A stretch of DNA of 50,145 nt from Flavobacteriaceae bacterium (lineage in GTDB: Bacteria; Bacteroidota; Bacteroidia; Flavobacteriales; Flavobacteriaceae), in contig JADZFW010000124.1 in the NCBI GenBank assembly GCA_020854235.1, positions 1 to 50,145 of the forward strand, written 5' to 3'. A program made the position numbers and the translations under genes. The notes under the pieces were generated by a model. It was not told the DNA's origin, made no database searches, and was given only the letters and a program-made list of their open reading frames with translations. This document shows positions 6,965 through 49,171 of the stretch, in pieces (within the stretch, counting starts at the first letter, position 1; each line of letters starts with the position of its first letter).

Positions 6965-7333
6965 ATGGAAGTAACCGGACGTATTAAAAAAATTGAACCG
7001 ACCAAAGAATTTGGAAGCAGCGGTTTTAAAAAAAGAGAATTGGTAATCACTACTGAAGAACAATATCCACAACACATTCTCATCGAATTTGTACAAGATA
7101 AATGTGCCTTATTAGATGCAGTTCAAGAAGGTCAAAATGTAAAAGTAGCCATCAACCTAAGAGGTAGAGAATGGATTAACCCACAAGGCGAAGCCAAATA
7201 TTTCAATTCCTTAAACGGTTGGAAAATTGATTTAGTTCAAGCTAATGCACCACAACCTATGGCTCCTACACCCAAATTTGAAGAAGTAGATCCATTTGTT
7301 GATAGCAACGAACCCGATGATTTACCATTTTAG
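6965..7333 (+). CDS. DUF3127 protein with SSB-like acidic tail
   Basis: A 122-residue protein of the DUF3127 family, a small Bacteroidetes family that resembles an OB fold. The first ~95 residues alternate beta strands (MEVTGRIKKIEP, FKKRELVITTEEQY, ILIEFVQDKC, VKVAINLRGREW, KYFNSLNGWKIDLV). A proline-rich linker follows (about residues 93-105), then an acidic tail ending in DDLPF. That layout is the same as single-stranded DNA-binding protein, whose terminal DDIPF peptide recruits repair and replication enzymes. A role in DNA binding and partner recruitment is therefore likely but not proven. The last base of the stop codon is also the first base of a dispersed palindrome. Confidence 0.85.
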   Translation: MEVTGRIKKIEPTKEFGSSGFKKRELVITTEEQYPQHILIEFVQDKCALLDAVQEGQNVKVAINLRGREWINPQGEAKYFNSLNGWKIDLVQANAPQPMAPTPKFEEVDPFVDSNEPDDLPF

Positions 7334-7359
7334 TCCCGATTCTCGATAGCTATCGGGAC
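7333..7359. repeat. Dispersed palindrome, copy 1 (interrupted)
   Basis: GTCCCGAT, then TC, then TCGATAGCTATCGGGAC: a variant of the 20-bp palindrome seen perfectly at 31566. It starts on the last base of the DUF3127 stop codon. Confidence 0.7.
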
Positions 7360-8488: not shown

Positions 8489-9502
8489 TTACTTCCAAAC
8501 TCCCATCCGATACTTCTTCACTGGTTGTTTAGGGAATTGAGCCCAAAAAACCCCGTTTACCCGATCCAAAACTAGCAATAAATCTTCCGTCGCATTGTAA
8601 TAATCTGGATAATATTCAAGAGGCAAAATCGCAATATTTTGTCTGCAAAAACAAGGTTCTTCCTGACGCAACTTATTGATTTCTAACAATAATTCTTTAC
8701 TATCCTCCACCAAATGTTCTTCTCCCTTTACTATGCGATCCCTGACTCTCTTGACATAAGTGTGATAAAAATACTCATATTCAATACCTAAAAAAGGATG
8801 CTTGCGCAACAACTCTGCTGAATTATAATAATATTGTACATGTGGCATATCGACAAATCCCACAAAATGTCCTCCCCATCGCAGCTTAAATTTCTGAGTT
8901 AAACTGTCCAACATCATATAGTGTCTGGCTTGTGTCGTATATTTTTTGTTTCTATAAATGCCAAAATCTGAAGCCAAACCCAACTCATGAAAAGATAACT
9001 GCGCTTGTGAATAACCACTTTTCAAAACCTTTTGCTGATCTTCTCGGGTGCGTTGATCGGATATTACTTTTATGGAATATAATGGATAATGATCTTTAAA
9101 ATAAAGCATTAAAGAATCTCTTCTCCGCAAAAAATCGATTCTTTGTGTGAACAACCAAGGCTCCCATCTTTCAAATAATGTTTGATTCGGCACTAACAAC
9201 AAACTTAAGTATTGTTTGGAAATACTATCCAAAACGGTTTCAGAGGTTGCTTCTTCACTCGGCAAAATCAGCCAAGAAATAACCGAATCATTATCCTTTG
9301 TGCCAAATATTAACCTTTTAGGGACTACAGCAGGCATCGAATCCTTTTTAAAAAGAGTCAAAATCATGGGTCTTACGCCAACAATGTGATTTGCAACTAA
9401 AGTCGTGTCACAATTCAAAGCTTCCCACAAAGGTTTTTCTTGTGCCTGGTTCTTAGCTGAAAAGAAAAAAAACATTACCATAAAACACAAAATTCTAATC
9501 AT
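8489..9502 (-). CDS. Exported M15-type peptidase (putative peptidoglycan endopeptidase)
   Basis: A 337-residue exported protein with an N-terminal signal peptide (about residues 1-20, ending near NQAQ). The central region carries the metal site of M15 peptidases such as D-Ala-D-Ala carboxypeptidases and L-Ala-D-Glu endopeptidases: SFHELGLASDF (H172, D179) and DMPHVQY (H221), preceded by ISDQRTREDQQ. The flanking N-terminal ~120 and C-terminal ~90 residues have no recognised domain, so the protein is longer than minimal M15 enzymes. A cell-wall cleavage role is inferred from the family. It is a single gene converging on the MazG-like gene. Confidence 0.75.
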   Translation of the reverse strand: MIRILCFMVMFFFFSAKNQAQEKPLWEALNCDTTLVANHIVGVRPMILTLFKKDSMPAVVPKRLIFGTKDNDSVISWLILPSEEATSETVLDSISKQYLSLLLVPNQTLFERWEPWLFTQRIDFLRRRDSLMLYFKDHYPLYSIKVISDQRTREDQQKVLKSGYSQAQLSFHELGLASDFGIYRNKKYTTQARHYMMLDSLTQKFKLRWGGHFVGFVDMPHVQYYYNSAELLRKHPFLGIEYEYFYHTYVKRVRDRIVKGEEHLVEDSKELLLEINKLRQEEPCFCRQNIAILPLEYYPDYYNATEDLLLVLDRVNGVFWAQFPKQPVKKYRMGVWK

Positions 9503-9578
9503 GCTGCTGTTAATTAAACAATTCTAAATCAAATCTTACAATTCTATTCTCTTGTGACAAAGATGAAAAAAAATCGTG

Positions 9579-9586
9579 TACTTTTG
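9579..9586 (+). promoter_or_regulatory. Probable promoter (-7 box) for the small membrane protein - aroA pair
   Basis: TACTTTTG matches TAnnTTTG, 24 nt before the start codon of the small membrane protein. A TTG at 9552-9554 is a little too far upstream (24-nt spacer) for an ideal -33 element. Confidence 0.45.
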
Positions 9587-9610
9587 TGAATATTAAAATT
9601 AATTTTCATT

Positions 9611-9859
9611 ATGCAAAATAGAAATTTAAATAATATACCATTTTGGAAATTAGCTCTAAGATTGGGAATTGTATTTATCTTGATTGTAATGACCATCCAA
9701 TTTTTTTGGGAATGGATCAAAACCGGTAACTTGGAGTTTTTTACTGATGCTTTTAAAAATGGGTACTGGAAAGCTTATGCAACATATAGAGTTATATTGG
9801 CAACTGTTTACGGATTGATTTCTGCCTACTTTTTGAAACGTAATGCATCCAAAAAGTGA
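9611..9859 (+). CDS. Small membrane protein of unknown function
   Basis: An 82-residue protein with two predicted membrane helices (about residues 13-32 and 57-75), joined by a segment rich in aromatic residues, and a lysine-rich C-terminus. I do not recognise the family. Its stop codon overlaps the GTG start of aroA in the tetranucleotide GTGA, so the two genes are translationally coupled and expressed from the promoter box upstream. The coupling suggests a stable association with aroA but does not indicate a function. Confidence 0.75.
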   Translation: MQNRNLNNIPFWKLALRLGIVFILIVMTIQFFWEWIKTGNLEFFTDAFKNGYWKAYATYRVILATVYGLISAYFLKRNASKK

Positions 9860-43217: not shown

Positions 43218-44012
43218 ATGGCATTATTTAATTCATCTCGCAGCGGTGGATTTCCCATCAAGCTCATATTAGCAGCAGGAATCATCATTTTTTCATTGGT
43301 TCGTTATTGGTCCAATTCGGAAAGTAATCCTTGGACCGGACGCAAGCAACACATCACTTTGGAGCCTCAGCAGGAAATTGCTTTGGGTATTGAAAGTGCA
43401 CCGCAAATGGCTCAAGAATATGGGGGTTTGTATCCAGACCAAGAATTACAAGATTTAGTCGATAAAGTAGGACAACGTTTGGTTCAATACAGTGTAGCTC
43501 AGGAAACCCCTTACCGTTATGATTTTCACTTACTGCGTGATCCCAATACCATCAATGCATTTGCTTTACCAGGAGGTCAAGTATTTATCACGTATGGATT
43601 GTTGCGTAAATTGCAGAGTGAAGACCAATTGGCAGGCGTATTGGGTCATGAAATCGGGCATGTATTGGGCAGACATTCAGCCGAAAGAATTGCCAAACAA
43701 GACCTCACGTCGGGAATTGTAAATGGTGTTTTGGTAGGTTCGGATGGTAGTCAAAGTGCGGCTCAAACGGCAGCTATGATAGGTAATATCGTCAACATGA
43801 AATACGGACGGGATGACGAATTGGAAAGCGATGAATTAGGTGTTAAAATCATGCTCGATGCCGGATATAACCCCGAAGAAATGATAGGAGTGATGGAAAT
43901 ATTGAAAGCAGCCTCGGGAGGACAAAGGGTTCCGGAATTTCAGAGTACGCATCCCAATCCTGAGAATAGAATTGAGAAGATTAAAGCAGCTATTGAGAAG
44001 TATAGGAAATGA
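43218..44012 (+). CDS. M48-family metallopeptidase, membrane-anchored
   Basis: A 264-residue zinc metallopeptidase starting at ATG 43218. An N-terminal membrane helix (about residues 13-29) is followed by a periplasmic M48 domain. The zinc site is HEIGH at residues 144-148, with the third ligand in ELESDELGVKIM about 55 residues later, and INAFALPGGQVFITYGLL is the block before the zinc site. It resembles the BepA/LoiP group, which clears misfolded outer-membrane proteins. BepA has a C-terminal TPR domain; this protein ends soon after the catalytic domain. The open frame continues upstream to a TTG at 43161, but the ATG fits the family better. A palindrome copy follows the stop codon. Confidence 0.9.
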   Translation: MALFNSSRSGGFPIKLILAAGIIIFSLVRYWSNSESNPWTGRKQHITLEPQQEIALGIESAPQMAQEYGGLYPDQELQDLVDKVGQRLVQYSVAQETPYRYDFHLLRDPNTINAFALPGGQVFITYGLLRKLQSEDQLAGVLGHEIGHVLGRHSAERIAKQDLTSGIVNGVLVGSDGSQSAAQTAAMIGNIVNMKYGRDDELESDELGVKIMLDAGYNPEEMIGVMEILKAASGGQRVPEFQSTHPNPENRIEKIKAAIEKYRK

Positions 44013-44020
44013 AGAATTGA

Positions 44021-44040
44021 GTCCCGATAGCTATCTGGAT
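44021..44040. repeat. Dispersed palindrome, copy 4 (degenerate right arm)
   Basis: GTCCCGATAGCTATCTGGAT: the left arm is identical to the perfect copy at 31566, and the right arm differs at two positions. It lies 8 nt after the M48 stop codon. Confidence 0.75.
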
Positions 44041-44089
44041 GAGAATTATGAATTTATTGAATAAGGGAAAAAATCTCATCTTTAGGAAA

Positions 44090-44605
44090 TTAACCTTTAA
44101 CGCCTTTCTTAAAAGCTTCATTCAATTCTTTAAAATCCAATTTGCCATTTACACCAACAAGGTAATGTCTCAAAACTAATAATTTCTCGAGTTGTTTTGC
44201 CTCCGATTTGAATTTGCCTATCAAGTGCAACAGCGTTCTTTGTTTGCCGGGTGAAAGTGCATGAAAAACTTCATCAAATTCGGGGTCTTGTTGCCACAAT
44301 TCGGCAAAGACTTCCGGAACAGGCATTCCATACTTACTGGGATCTGGGATCAAATGAACCCTTATTTCATCGTGTAATTTCAAAAGCAAACGATCCCTAA
44401 TTTCTTTATTGATATTGATAAAATATCCTTTTTCACCAGCTGACATCACAGCGCATTGAAAGGAATAAGTGTGATTCAAAGTACATATCACCCGAGTTCC
44501 ACCAGACTTCAAAGCGAGCGCTACCTCATCGGGAACTTGTAGGTGATAATGCCACAAGTCTTCTCGTTCAAATTGTTGTAGATAGGCTGTGAATGAATGG
44601 AACAT
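44090..44605 (-). CDS. DUF1905 / YdeI (OmpD-associated) family protein
   Basis: A 171-residue protein with two parts. Residues about 10-90 match the DUF1905 barrel (WHYHLQVPDEVALALKSGGTRVICTLN, GYFININKEIRDRLLLKLHDEIRVHLIPDPS). Residues about 95-145 form the YdeI/OmdA helical bundle (PEVFAELWQQDPEFDEVFHALSPGKQRTLLHLIGKFKSEAKQLEK). Family members are implicated in stress and peptide-resistance phenotypes, but the molecular function is unknown. There is no signal peptide. It is encoded on the same strand as, and 54 nt downstream of, the unknown CxxC protein, with a heptanucleotide repeat in the gap. Confidence 0.82.
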   Translation of the reverse strand: MFHSFTAYLQQFEREDLWHYHLQVPDEVALALKSGGTRVICTLNHTYSFQCAVMSAGEKGYFININKEIRDRLLLKLHDEIRVHLIPDPSKYGMPVPEVFAELWQQDPEFDEVFHALSPGKQRTLLHLIGKFKSEAKQLEKLLVLRHYLVGVNGKLDFKELNEAFKKGVKG

Positions 44606-44615
44606 GGGTTAGAGA

Positions 44616-44678
44616 GTTTAAAGTTAAAAGTTAAAAGTTAAAAGTTAAAAGTTTAAAGTTTAAAGTTTAAAGTTAAAA
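44616..44678. repeat. Heptanucleotide tandem repeat (GTTAAAA/GTTTAAA)
   Basis: Nine contiguous 7-bp units, GTTTAAA or GTTAAAA, without interruption. The right end lies within the coding sequence of the upstream minus-strand gene and contains its stop codon and last residues. Confidence 0.9.
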
Positions 44679-45454
44679 AATGGTTCATTGATATAAGTAT
44701 TGCCGTAATATTCTACGGGTCTTATGTGTTTGTGGGTTGGGAAGTCAATGAAAGGGCTTTGGCAATGTGGACAAAGCAAGGCGTTGTAGTAACGAAATTT
44801 TCCTTTTCCATTGGTAGGTAAAGGCAATTGGGCTTCTACTTCGGAAATTAATTTTTCATCTATTTCAGATTGCAAATGAACCGGGAGATTGGGGATATCG
44901 GTGTAATGTACGAGGAGTGTTTGTCGACTGTCTTCGGAGTAGAAGTATTGTAATTCGGAATGCCCACCATGTATGTGTTGGAGGGTGAAACTTTTTTGAC
45001 AATGGTCGCAGATGCAGATATTTCTGACCGCTGTGGGAGTGATGGTTCCCGAATAATGCAAACCCCTTTCGAAGAGACCTTTTCCGATGAGTCTTTGGGG
45101 AAAAGCAGGATCGGCTGTTGAGAGGAAAAAAGGCTGAAGACGAATGGCTTCATAATCCGGATCTTCCCATGTGGGATGTGTATCGGGACGAGGAGCGATG
45201 ATTCCATCGATCATGACACCACTATTAGCCAAAATTCTCACCGAGAAATGTAGAAATTGGCCCGATAAATCGGGGTTTGTCAACAGCGTTTCAACCACAA
45301 AAGATTTAATCAACACTTCGTCTTCATAGACGTTGATGATAGGGATAGCCGTATGGAAGGAAAGCACTCCGGTAAGTTCATCGGTGATGGGACTATCGGG
45401 TGCGGGAGCTGTGATGTAGAAGTTGGTGTCAAGAGTTTTGATTCGGTAAGACAT
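44660..45454 (-). CDS. Unknown protein with two CxxC pairs (putative zinc-binding)
   Basis: A 264-residue protein (ATG at 45454) that I do not recognise. It has no signal peptide or membrane helix. The N-terminal ~140 residues are beta-rich. A cysteine cluster at about residues 150-160 (CICDHC, followed by HIHGGH) and a CPHC at about residue 240 suggest two half-sites of a zinc ribbon. The last residues NFKL and the stop codon are encoded by a heptanucleotide tandem repeat, so the C-terminus may vary in length between strains. It is probably cotranscribed with the YdeI-family gene. A regulatory or nucleic-acid role is possible but unsupported. Confidence 0.65.
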   Translation of the reverse strand: MSYRIKTLDTNFYITAPAPDSPITDELTGVLSFHTAIPIINVYEDEVLIKSFVVETLLTNPDLSGQFLHFSVRILANSGVMIDGIIAPRPDTHPTWEDPDYEAIRLQPFFLSTADPAFPQRLIGKGLFERGLHYSGTITPTAVRNICICDHCQKSFTLQHIHGGHSELQYFYSEDSRQTLLVHYTDIPNLPVHLQSEIDEKLISEVEAQLPLPTNGKGKFRYYNALLCPHCQSPFIDFPTHKHIRPVEYYGNTYINEPFFNFKL

Positions 45455-45562
45455 AGGTTTAAATTTCCAATTATTAAATTTCAAATTCCAAAAGCGTTCA
45501 TAATTTATTTTTTTAATTTAAAAAAGCTTTCTTAGCAAAAGCAGGGACAGATTTCAACAAAG

Positions 45563-45635
<73 letters not shown>

Positions 45636-45646
45636 GGGTTGTAGTG

Positions 45647-45654
45647 CAAATATA
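45647..45654 (-). promoter_or_regulatory. Probable promoter (-7 box) of tRNA-Thr
   Basis: Minus-strand TATATTTG matches TAnnTTTG and lies 12 nt upstream of the tRNA 5' end. Confidence 0.6.
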
Positions 45655-45788
45655 GTAATTTTGTTTTCTGAAAGTTGGGGGTTTTTATTAATTGTGAATA
45701 AGATTTAAAATCTGTCCACAAAACTGATTACCTCACAATTAATCGAATGTTCTAGTTATAAATTCCCTTATTCTTTTTTTATATCTTA

Positions 45789-45880
45789 AAACTAAAGTCA
45801 AAAAACAAAGTTAAGTTTACCTTATACATCATTAAATCTGAAAAAACTTACCCATATACTAGAAGATGTTTTTTGGTTTA
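45789..45880. repeat. Diverged direct repeat, copy A
   Basis: This segment is similar along its length to 47038-47130. The first 22 bases differ at one position (AAACTAAAGTC against AAACTATAGTC, then AAAAAACAAAG in both). ACATCAT and the region corresponding to the hairpin of copy B can also be aligned. Confidence 0.65.
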
Positions 45881-45987
45881 TTAAACTATTTATTCATTTG
45901 GATTTGGGTGTTTCATTTAAATTGTTTAAAAAACATTTTTCACTAAAACTATAGAAACTCATTAAATGAACGCATTACTTTACAATA

Positions 45988-46550
45988 TCAGAAACACTTT
46001 TTTCCGTCAGAAATACTTTTTATTATAAGAAGAACATTTAAGCATCAGAAACCTATAATTTTAAATCAGAATTATATTTTTAAAGTTCGGAATTATATTA
46101 AACAATATCGGAAATACATTTATTGATTCAGAATCACCTATTATAATATCAGAATCATATTTTATAATATCAGAATCATATTTTATAATTTCAGAATCAT
46201 ATAATTTTAATTCAGAATCATATTTTTTAATTTCAGAATTATATAATTTAAATTCAGAATCATATTTTTTAATTTCAGAATTATATAATTTAAATTCAGA
46301 ATCATATTTTATAATTTCTGAAATATATTTATCAATTTCTGAAATACATTTTTAAGTTTCGAAAAAGAAAATATTCATTTCAGAACAATCTATTAAATCA
46401 TAAGAAACACAAAATTTTAATTCTAGCAAACTTTTTAATTGAGATGAAAACTATTTTATTCATTCTGAAGACTACATATCTTCATCGGAAGATTAAATAG
46501 CTTTTGTTGAAGAACTGTTATTGATGTTTGAAGGAATTAATAGTTTCACT
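45988..46550. repeat. Degenerate tandem array with 21-nt period
   Basis: TCAGAA (or TCGGAA, TCTGAA, TCGAAA, TAAGAA) recurs at 45988, 46007, 46026, 46045, 46066, 46087, 46108, 46128 and then every 21 nt exactly: 46149, 46170, 46191, 46212, 46233, 46254, 46275, 46296, 46317, 46338, 46359, 46380, 46401. More weakly the register continues to about 46550. The core units are TCAGAATCATAT or TCAGAATTATAT followed by nine A/T bases. The first three intervals are 19 nt and one is 20. No gene is open through it: the frames free of stops in most units (S-E-x-Y type forward, K-Y-D-S-E type reverse) are interrupted by TAA or TGA. Confidence 0.85.
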
Positions 46551-46650
46551 CGAGTCTGTTGATATAGTGAATATTGGAATTGTTGATAAAATTGAAGTAC
46601 AATTTATAAATATAGTTATCTTAAAAAAATGATTTAAATATATTTTTAAA

Positions 46651-46781
46651 TTCCGTAGGGGATAAATATCTGTAGAGTATGCAATTAGATAAAATTATCG
46701 CCGACGGTTGCAGCGAAGCTGCAACCGTCGGCGTGTTTATTTCCATGTTGTTTTTTCTACAAATATTTAGTCCCTACGGGA
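46651..46781. mobile_element. MITE/REP-like inverted-repeat element with central perfect hairpin
   Basis: A 26-bp left end at 46651-46676 (TTCCGTAGGGGATAAATATC and six more bases) pairs with a right end at 46756-46781 (containing CTACAAATATTTAG then TCCCTACGGGA) at 22 of 26 positions. In the centre, CGCCGACGGTTGCAGC (46699-46714) pairs perfectly with GCTGCAACCGTCGGCG (46718-46733) around a GAA loop. It encodes no protein. The structure resembles non-autonomous REP or MITE elements. The assignment rests on structure only, since no transposase or second copy is in the window. Confidence 0.6.
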
Positions 46782-47037
46782 CATTATTTCACATTATGTA
46801 TGGATCAAAATTAAAGAATGAATCATTATTAATTTTTATCTAGTGAAAAGTTTTTATACAAAAAAGTTTAAAATCCTTGCACATGGCATTAATATTTCGC
46901 TTTAATTTATTGAAAAAACTGACATGTAAGACTTTTTCAGCAGACCCTAAATAACTTGTTTTTTTAATATTGATTTATCCTAATAAAAGATTTCAAGTAT
47001 TATCTATCAAATAATATTCATTATAATTTTTTCCCTG

Positions 47038-47130
47038 AAACTATAGTCAAAAAACAAAGGAAAGATTAGCATTGACATCATACCAAACCAAAAACACCTT
47101 CCCGAATATAGGAAGGTGTTTTATTATTCA
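47038..47130. repeat. Diverged direct repeat, copy B
   Basis: Second copy of the segment at 45789-45880. It ends in the terminator hairpin of the minus-strand gene at 47154. Confidence 0.65.
47090..47122 (-). terminator. Terminator of the exported protein gene at 47154
   Basis: AAACACCTTCC pairs with GGAAGGTGTTT around an 8-base AT-rich loop, followed by a T run on the minus strand. It lies about 30 nt beyond the stop codon. Confidence 0.8.
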
Positions 47131-47153
47131 AGTATATCTTGAAAAGCAATAAT

Positions 47154-47561
47154 TTATTTCACTTGGGTATCTACCGTTTCGGTATCAATATCAAATACTA
47201 AACTGATGCTCAATTTTTTCTTGAGATTTATCGCACCATCATAATAGGCATCAACGGAGTAATTGTTTGCTACGGTATGATCTTCCCATACACCTTCGTA
47301 AAGGGCTTGATTCATGATGCGCACATCGTGTTTACCTTTGGCAACTTTTACTTTGATAGAAATAGGTTCTGACTGTAATTGAACAGGAGATTCGGCTACC
47401 AGTTCGCCATCGACATAAACCAAAGTTCGACATTCGTGATCGTAACCTTCAATGATGTTGATGTAGTGCGTTTTTACGGTAATAGTACCCATTTTTTGGG
47501 CAAAAGTGTTGAATGCAAAAAATGGAATCAACAGTGCGAGTAAGAAAAATTTTTTCTTCAT
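47154..47561 (-). CDS. Small exported protein, function unknown
   Basis: A 135-residue exported protein with a clear signal peptide (about residues 1-21, ending TFAQ). The mature part is beta-rich with alternating charged and hydrophobic residues (GTITVKTHYINIIEGYDHECRTLVYVDGELVAESPVQL, ISIKVKVAKGKHDVRIMN), resembling PEGA-like or Ig-like modules. It has one cysteine. I do not recognise the family. It is on the same strand as the response regulator gene but separated by 222 bp of hairpin repeats, so joint expression is uncertain. Confidence 0.7.
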   Translation of the reverse strand: MKKKFFLLALLIPFFAFNTFAQKMGTITVKTHYINIIEGYDHECRTLVYVDGELVAESPVQLQSEPISIKVKVAKGKHDVRIMNQALYEGVWEDHTVANNYSVDAYYDGAINLKKKLSISLVFDIDTETVDTQVK

Positions 47562-47652
47562 TGGTGTTTAATTAGTAATTATTTATTCTTGATTTGTGGA
47601 GCATTTTAAAATGTAGCATGCTTGACACAATGTTTTGATATTTTATTTGTTT

Positions 47653-47780
47653 AGTGAGGGCTCGACTTGGAGTCGAACCCTCACTCGACTTGGAGTTTAA
47701 ACCCTTTAGTGAGGGCTCGACTTGGAGTCGAACCCTCACTCGACTTGGAGTCGAACCCTCACTCGAGTCGAGCCCTCACT
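47653..47780. repeat. Hairpin-forming direct repeats downstream of the response regulator gene
   Basis: A 33-bp hairpin unit AGTGAGGGCTCGAC-TTGGA-GTCGAACCCTCACT (13 of 14 pairs) occurs at 47653-47685 and 47708-47740, spaced 55 bp apart. A partial copy CGACTTGGAGTCGAACCCTC follows at 47741-47763, then CGAGTCGAGCCCTCACT up to 47780. GC content is much higher than in the surroundings. It starts only 3 nt beyond the response regulator stop codon. Confidence 0.85.
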
Positions 47781-47783
47781 GAC

Positions 47784-48437
47784 TTAAATGATACGTCGGT
47801 TTTTAGCTATTTGGACGGCTTCCATTTTATTGTGTACTTGTAATTTGCCGTAAATATTTTCGATGTGTTTGCGTACGGTACCTTGTGAAATAAAGAGGTT
47901 TTCGGCTACTTGATTGTAGTTTAAACCTTTGCTGAGTTGTTCTAAAATTTCGACTTCTCTTTTGGTCAAAGCCAATTCATCATCTGAGTTGGTTGTTACT
48001 GCAAATTCTTGAGGATTTCGCAAGAGTTTGAGTGTTTTGAGTGCCACTCCAGGAGTCATGGGTGCGCCACCTTGAATGGATTCCAAAATAGACCTATGAA
48101 GTGCATCGGCATCAATTTCTTTCAGCAGGTATCCGTCTGCACCGGCTTGAATGGATTTAAAAATATTTTCATCGTCATCAAAAACGGTAAGCATGATGAT
48201 TTTGATTTGCGGATAACGTTGTTTGACCAATTCTGTAGCAACAATACCGTTCATCTCAGGCATTTGGATGTCCATCAAAATCACATCTATGTTGTGATTG
48301 AGTTCCAGTTTTCCAATCAATTCTGCCCCATTGACTGCTTTAAATTTGAACTGCAAATCCTCGAAAAAACTCAATTTTTCGATAACAGCTTTGGCTAAAA
48401 AAGCATTGTCTTCGGCTATTGCTATTCTGTACTTCAT
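47784..48437 (-). CDS. NarL/FixJ-type response regulator
   Basis: A 217-residue two-domain response regulator. The receiver domain (residues 1-125) has the acidic pocket ED at 9-10, phosphoacceptor D56 in VILMDIQMPEMNG, T83-type MLTVFDDDE and K105 in GYLLKEID. The C-terminal LuxR-type DNA-binding domain is at about residues 150-215 (LTKREVEILEQLSKGLNYNQVAENLFISQGTVRKHIENIYGKL). No histidine kinase is adjacent. The genes upstream on the same strand encode exported proteins spaced 11 and 35 nt apart, so it is probably the last gene of that set. A partner kinase could lie beyond the window end. Confidence 0.93.
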   Translation of the reverse strand: MKYRIAIAEDNAFLAKAVIEKLSFFEDLQFKFKAVNGAELIGKLELNHNIDVILMDIQMPEMNGIVATELVKQRYPQIKIIMLTVFDDDENIFKSIQAGADGYLLKEIDADALHRSILESIQGGAPMTPGVALKTLKLLRNPQEFAVTTNSDDELALTKREVEILEQLSKGLNYNQVAENLFISQGTVRKHIENIYGKLQVHNKMEAVQIAKNRRII

Positions 48438-48472
48438 GATAAATGGGTTATTCTTGGGTAAATATAGAAAAT

Positions 48473-49171
48473 CTAATCTAAAACTTTCAAAGTTTCGAGT
48501 TTATCGTTACACAAATGCATTTCCAAAGGTTGTCCTCCAAAAACGCTGTCTTTCATGATGTCTCTCAAAAGTTTGAAAACAACCACATTGGCATTGTCTT
48601 TTTCGGCGCCTTCTTTTACAACGGCTTTAAATTGGTAACCTGCATCGGTTTTCTCAATAGAAACGGTTTTGGCACGGTCATCAGAATAGCCATATTCCAC
48701 TAGGAAATCGGCAGTTTTTTGGGCAATTTCATCAGATACATTTGCGGTGTACATGACATCGGTAGCTTTGGCTTTGACCACTTTTTGAAGGTCTTTGTAG
48801 TAGAAAGTTTTGAGGGTTTTGAAGGTATTGTCACAAGCTTCAAAATCGACAGGTTGTTTGAATTCATTACTCAATTCACGGGCAAAGAGTTTGAACATCA
48901 CATCATTGGTAGCGTCTTTGGCTACTTCGTCCAATACAACCATCCGAAAAGTCAGATTTTTAGTTTCTTTATTGCGAACAAACTGTACGGATTTCGTATT
49001 GCCATCGGCAAATTCGGAAGTAACCAGATAATTTCCCAATTGGGTAGCTTCGGCTTCGGTGACGCCATCTTTGTAGTATACTTCGGTAGCGTTAAATTCC
49101 AATTTATCGCCATAATTGGAACATGAGAGCAACAATTGAGTTGCGATGCATAATAAAAATAATTTTTTCAT
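48473..49171 (-). CDS. Lipoprotein with two tandem homologous domains
   Basis: A 232-residue lipoprotein with lipobox LLSC (Cys at about residue 17). The mature part is an internal duplication. Residues about 25-125 and 130-232 share the order ATxVxY, A-x-x-x-G(D)Y(L), KSVxxx/KTVxxE, a block with VVLDEVAKDATNDVMFKLFARELS against VVKEGAEKDNANVVVFKLLRDIMK, and an ending with C-DN-F-TLKTF against C-ND-L-TLKVL. One cysteine is conserved in each half. I do not recognise the family. It is the third of four adjacent minus-strand genes, and its stop codon is 35 nt before the response regulator start. Confidence 0.78.
   Translation of the reverse strand: MKKLFLLCIATQLLLSCSNYGDKLEFNATEVYYKDGVTEAEATQLGNYLVTSEFADGNTKSVQFVRNKETKNLTFRMVVLDEVAKDATNDVMFKLFARELSNEFKQPVDFEACDNTFKTLKTFYYKDLQKVVKAKATDVMYTANVSDEIAQKTADFLVEYGYSDDRAKTVSIEKTDAGYQFKAVVKEGAEKDNANVVVFKLLRDIMKDSVFGGQPLEMHLCNDKLETLKVLD

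Follow-up and report, generated by a model that had tools for sequence, protein, structure and literature searches.

A non-coding tandem array in a Flavobacteriaceae genome keeps a 21-nt register beyond recognizable sequence similarity

A periodic array between a tRNA gene and a short reading frame

We analysed a 50,145-nt stretch of DNA (the window) that lies in contig 124 of a Flavobacteriaceae genome (G000) of 2.49 Mb and 76% completeness. A tandem array (W) occupies positions 45988 to about 46547, with a tRNA-Thr gene (45562-45635, minus strand) on one side and, on the other, a 135-codon open reading frame (47154-47561, minus strand) whose product was found only in this genome and its sister species (G001) among 149 genomes searched. 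No open reading frame of at least 60 codons lies across 45988-46550, and within 44000-48500 no Rfam family reached its gathering score apart from the neighbouring tRNA. A Pfam scan of eight neighbouring genes, four of them without any Pfam match, recognized no replication initiator and matched no cas gene.

The periodicity of W is real and exceeds chance. Self-identity at lag 21 reached 0.652 over 45981-46400, and no lag exceeded 0.472 in any of 500 Markov shuffles; lag 42 gave 0.65, and Tandem Repeats Finder reported a period of 21 with 14.5 copies at 46059-46360. An initial annotation had described roughly 27 units in a 21-nt register, and this description holds when degenerate in-register positions are counted as units; the objection that the period might not stand out from shuffled sequence fails. 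The same annotation had spoken of TCAGAA-type hexamers, which do recur at 21-nt steps, but the core is TCNGAA (often TTCNGAA, with A, T or G as the middle base) rather than TCAGAA only, and one step, from 46108 to 46128, is 20 nt. TCNGAA stands at 45988, 46007, 46045, 46066, 46087, 46108 and 46128, continues in 21-nt steps to 46338 and appears again at 46380, 46464 and 46485. The first three steps are of 19 nt, as had been noticed for the 5' end, and the remaining ones are 21 nt or multiples thereof.

A flank on the left (45893..45987), which G001 has conserved, leads into the left end of the array (45988..46065), four units with 19-nt steps and 21 nt after the fourth. Three diverged units follow (46066..46127; cores TCAGAA or TCGGAA; steps of 21, 21 and 20 nt), and then a homogenized centre of nine units (46128..46316) with the consensus TCAGAATCATATTTTTTAATT, organized in part as 42-nt pairs. 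Beyond it lie four units with the cores TTCTGAA, TTCTGAA, TTCGAA and TTCAGAA (46317..46400) and seven strongly degenerate units (46401..46547), six of which hold an in-phase GAA, with TTCTGAA at 46463 and TCGGAA at 46485. The short sequence common to the units is TCNGAA or, in the degenerate part, GAA, and is absent from a few degenerate units.

Register outlasts sequence in this array. Six of the eight GAA trinucleotides in 46385-46560 (46404, 46446, 46467, 46488, 46509 and 46530) share a single 21-nt phase, which none of 2000 shuffles matched, and in the left part four of eight are in phase (0 of 2000 shuffles). The phase persists to 46530 through units without other remaining similarity, in agreement with two earlier proposals: that the array continues more weakly towards 46550, and that its register is kept better than its sequence.

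The surroundings hold further repeats. At 46551-46947, about 400 bases in G000 correspond to about 30 in G001; the segment contains a GC-rich hairpin, GCCGACGGTTGCAGCGAAGCTGCAACCGTCGGC and TAGTCCCTACGGGACAT, which likely belongs to a dispersed REP-like family, because G001 has 54-nt units with AGTCCCTATGGGACAT in tandem at 9433-9631 of locus L229. A palindromic repeat, GTGAGGGCTCGACTTGGAGTCGAACCCTCAC, is present in several copies between two genes at 47676-47780 and in a single copy in G001; the CTCGGGG...CCCCGAGT palindromes at L165:6393-6554 and 7215-7359 resemble it. Two similar segments (45775-45885 and 47030-47125), each with GTCAAAAAACAAAG and then a terminator-like inverted repeat, lie on either side of the array region. 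Tandem arrays of 7, 8 and 9 nt (AGTTAAA, ATAACCCA, GGTTATTA and CTTTACAAA) occur at 44615-44678 of the window and at L166:10707-10888, L175:5906-5984 and L217:5260-5386, and are numerous in the genome.

Whole-unit changes and low divergence in a sister species

The array is also present at the corresponding site of G001. Identity between the two genomes starts near 45890, where the array region is bordered by tRNA-Thr in G000 and, in G001, by the terminal part of a T9SS type B gene (TIGR04131 sorting domain), a gene that also points to G000 as probably a member of the Flavobacteriales; because the G001 array adjoins that gene instead, the array is not tied to tRNA-Thr, and we rejected a role as a regulatory element of the tRNA gene. 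Inside the array, G001 has one additional unit in 46066..46127 and three fewer in the centre, so that the lengths differ by exactly 21 and 63 nt and nowhere else; the centre (46128..46316) also differs in unit sequence. The static parts differ by 4 substitutions in 254 positions on the left and 3 in 230 on the right. Together, these 7 of 484 positions (1.4%) compare with 11 of 127 fourfold sites (8.7%) in the two nearest genes (Fisher P = 0.0002) and with 10 of 202 positions (5.0%) in nearby intergenic DNA (P = 0.013). This low divergence suggests constraint on the static units. It could also reflect a local recombination tract, since nucleotide difference in the adjacent genes climbs with distance from the array, from 2% to 7%.

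W is common to two species of one genus. TTCNGAA matches elsewhere among 60 relatives appear unrelated to it, and we found no orthologous locus, and so no syntenic empty site, in G002 or G003, where the neighbouring response regulator has best matches of only 28-31% identity.

Arrays of 21 nt with other unit sequences

W is one of several 21-nt arrays in its genome, designated W, A, B/D, C, E, F and G, which differ in unit sequence; their numbers rest on samples of contigs. A DNA search revealed related arrays on contigs C81 and C195, where 21-nt arrays form composite runs, arranged in both cases as C, A, B/D along one strand. The C195 array is split by a mutator-family transposase gene (PF00872, IS256-like; L040:4497-5711) with an intact open frame. 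Further A or B/D arrays lie on C42 and C125. In 373 kb of contigs picked by number rather than content, we found three more 21-nt arrays (E, F and G) of unrelated sequence, and 21 was the commonest period within 10-50 nt. When periods of 15-25 and 15-27 nt were allowed, all matches listed for this genome were exactly 21 nt apart from the 19-nt ends.

The 46 nt at 45986-46031 that include the odd 19-nt steps are 93% identical to a type-A array end at C81 and 89% at C195, and a 34-base pattern for this end occurs exactly in three places, W, C81 and C195. Because the three arrays have this end in common, the 19-nt steps are an inherited array end. Register also outlives sequence in arrays C and E. 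The cores differ among arrays (TCNGAA, AACCNCAA, TATTAAACC and GAACTC), and conserved columns cluster into a core at P < 0.05 in 3 of 10 arrays, W not being among them.

Beyond this genome, at least 118 DNA stretches from cyanobacteria, spirochaetes, Bacteroidota, planctomycetes and others hold TCAGAA arrays at exact 21-nt spacing, a set selected by the TCAGAA motif; in later searches the period was left free. At the loci of those matches, outside the searched array, nine of the arrays in the 18-25-nt range had a period of 21 nt and one had a period of 25. TCAGAA triplets sought in six genomes with periods of 19-23 nt allowed were exactly 21 nt apart in all matches listed, and a reversed-pattern control gave at most one match per strand in five of these genomes; for the sixth, a Nostoc genome, it gave 14 and 13, as counts without listed spacings. 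An even sample of 400 kb from a complete Nostocales chromosome held five arrays, of which four had a 21-nt period, one of them probably coding; 21 nt was the commonest mid-length period in the samples of both this chromosome and the genome studied here. A genome of the same order, G198, has many GAACTC arrays with units mostly of 22 nt. Its contigs C6, C10, C17 and C18 hold many arrays of the unit GAACTCACCTACCACATACCTC (22 nt, occasionally 21) near contig ends, and G198 may be rich in such arrays. Separately, 22-nt iteron-like repeats, TTCGTGGTTTTCGGAACCTAAA, at 1380-1560 of L009 (G006:C47, a 9.4-kb contig) may belong to a plasmid origin.

Codons, curvature and RNA are unlikely to explain the period

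As 21 nt equals seven codons, W had been thought possibly left over from a heptad-repeat protein, which would be coiled-coil-like. On the minus strand, heptads of the SEIKKYD type can be read, with I/F/L and Y spaced as in a coiled coil, in a frame that is open for more than 90 codons in G000. We nonetheless consider this origin extremely unlikely: G001 has stops in both the minus SEIKKYD frame and the plus SESY frame, no ordinary-start reading frame of 60 codons runs through the array, and ten arrays showed no mod-3 pattern of variability (P 0.11 to 0.96). We thus found neither an open heptad frame in G001 nor variability concentrated at one codon position. The mostly 22-nt units of G198 cannot hold a reading frame, and several of the TCAGAA arrays of 21 nt elsewhere have no open frame whatever. 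The locus comparison that the annotation had called for recovered the array in G001, the one relative with the locus, without an intact heptad gene, and so gave no support to the objection that relatives might carry such a gene.

Intrinsic curvature from phased A-tracts, also suggested at the outset, fared no better and seems to us most improbable. W is AT-rich (84%), and its A/T runs show weak 10.5-bp phasing (0.56 against a 95% shuffle value of 0.54), but the bend predicted with a wedge model, using a hand-entered wedge table, was slightly less than that of shuffles (z = -1.45). Other 21-nt arrays gave z values from -2.3 to +5.1, and some exceed 50% GC.

Transcription and processing into RNA units, or a CRISPR-like array, is very unlikely, if somewhat less so. 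A core followed by a variable part resembles a repeat and spacer, most clearly in array E, and transcription as small RNA has been raised for bacterial repeats of this size (Subirana and Messeguer, IJMS 2021, PMC8161180). The Rfam result given above argues against this, as do the folding scores (z = -2.0 for the plus strand and -0.6 for the minus strand), and the supposed spacers are diverged copies of each other rather than independent sequences. Across 116 arrays, the unit consensus is also no more palindromic than chance would give. Palindromic or hairpin units, an idea that came from TTCNGAA and from apparent compensating changes in a Treponema array, were rejected on that comparison, as self-complementarity was no higher than in shuffles (mean P 0.48, with 7% of arrays below 0.05). 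With codons, curvature, palindromes and RNA folding made unlikely, two alternatives are left: a phased protein array and a two-turn copying bias.

A possible phased protein array or two-turn copying bias

We put at about even the chance that W is a satellite remodelled by whole-unit copy changes, its two-turn spacing being kept through a protein on one face of the helix. In this scheme, units would multiply by replication slippage or unequal recombination. A putative DNA-binding protein, nucleoid-associated or regulatory, would contact the short core at every second turn, always on one face, so that length changes other than whole units would be removed. The arrangement of W is in keeping with this: a homogenized centre lies between diverged, static outer units, one end is common to three loci and the length differences from G001 are whole units. 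That a putative protein meeting each core on one helix face is itself the reason for the spacing we suggest tentatively; none is known or was found for this array.

A neutral satellite, in which slippage or recombination is biased to about two helical turns and the array has no function, is possible, although we do not favour it; its register would last only because short indels occur less often than substitutions or because unit conversion erases them. Unit sequences vary between arrays and genomes as length stays near 21, copy number differs between the sister species, and some sampled relatives lack such arrays (none in 400 kb of G017; none of 21 nt in 199 kb of G002). On the other side, the GAA phase persists in units without other similarity, static units diverge several-fold less than the fourfold sites of the two nearest genes, and conserved columns cluster in some arrays. 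Because cores differ between arrays of one genome, a single sequence-specific protein is disfavoured, and the neutral two-turn bias is therefore a close rival of the phased protein array.

Selection on spacing, as the initial annotation had it, is plausible. The retention of 21 nt in arrays of unrelated sequence, here and in other phyla, speaks for it, as does the divergence of static units below that of fourfold sites; the array is not isolated, however, being one of several. A broader version, in which a spacing-sensing protein that polymerizes with one contact per two turns holds 20-22-nt arrays of many sequences in register across several phyla, is unlikely; if true, the arrays would be phased nucleoid or regulatory sites. 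The locus offers a testable case, with an array common to two sister species, outer units that look constrained and a phase that outlives sequence.

Comparison with known systems

CRISPR arrays likewise combine a conserved core with a variable stretch at a fixed period. In W, however, the period is 21 nt, the scanned neighbours include no cas gene, and the "spacers" are related: in place of unrelated spacers between identical repeats, the units are diverged copies throughout. Plasmid iterons are direct repeats of about two helical turns that are bound by an initiator on one face. The arrays described here differ in being dispersed over several sites in the genome, and no initiator was recognized among the eight neighbouring genes. 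Heptamer tandem repeats (PMC4692102, PMC4679880 and PMC6344855) lie between genes in many bacteria and have a fixed short length; 21 is three times seven, and arrays of 7-9 nt occur in this genome as well. The units of W are 21 nt, however, and lags 7 and 14 are absent from its top self-identity lags, so we rejected a heptamer origin.

Subirana and Messeguer (J Bacteriol 2020, as cited in PMC8161180; IJMS 2021, PMC8161180) described tandem repeats of bacteria whose size is constant (20-21 or 52 nt) and whose sequence varies; they are non-coding, occur in many bacterial groups, form several families that differ in sequence but have one length per genome, and keep a short sequence conserved throughout their units. 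The repeat length equals two helical turns, and published surveys find that length is kept but sequence is not in the 20-21-nt and 52-nt repeats, with function not known; protein polymerization on DNA and transcription as small RNA have been put forward as hypotheses (PMC8161180). W very probably belongs to the 20-21-nt group as a non-coding bacterial satellite: it is non-coding, its steps are 21 nt apart from the first ones of 19 and a single one of 20, its units hold a short characteristic sequence, and its genome contains several families of the same length. The published repeats are also largely species-specific and patchy over phyla, cyanobacteria included; the arrays reported here are likewise patchy over phyla. 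The present case differs from that class in the 19-nt steps at an end common to several loci, in a register that runs past recognizable similarity, in the composite neighbouring arrays of its genome and in conservation between two species of one genus, with whole-unit changes.
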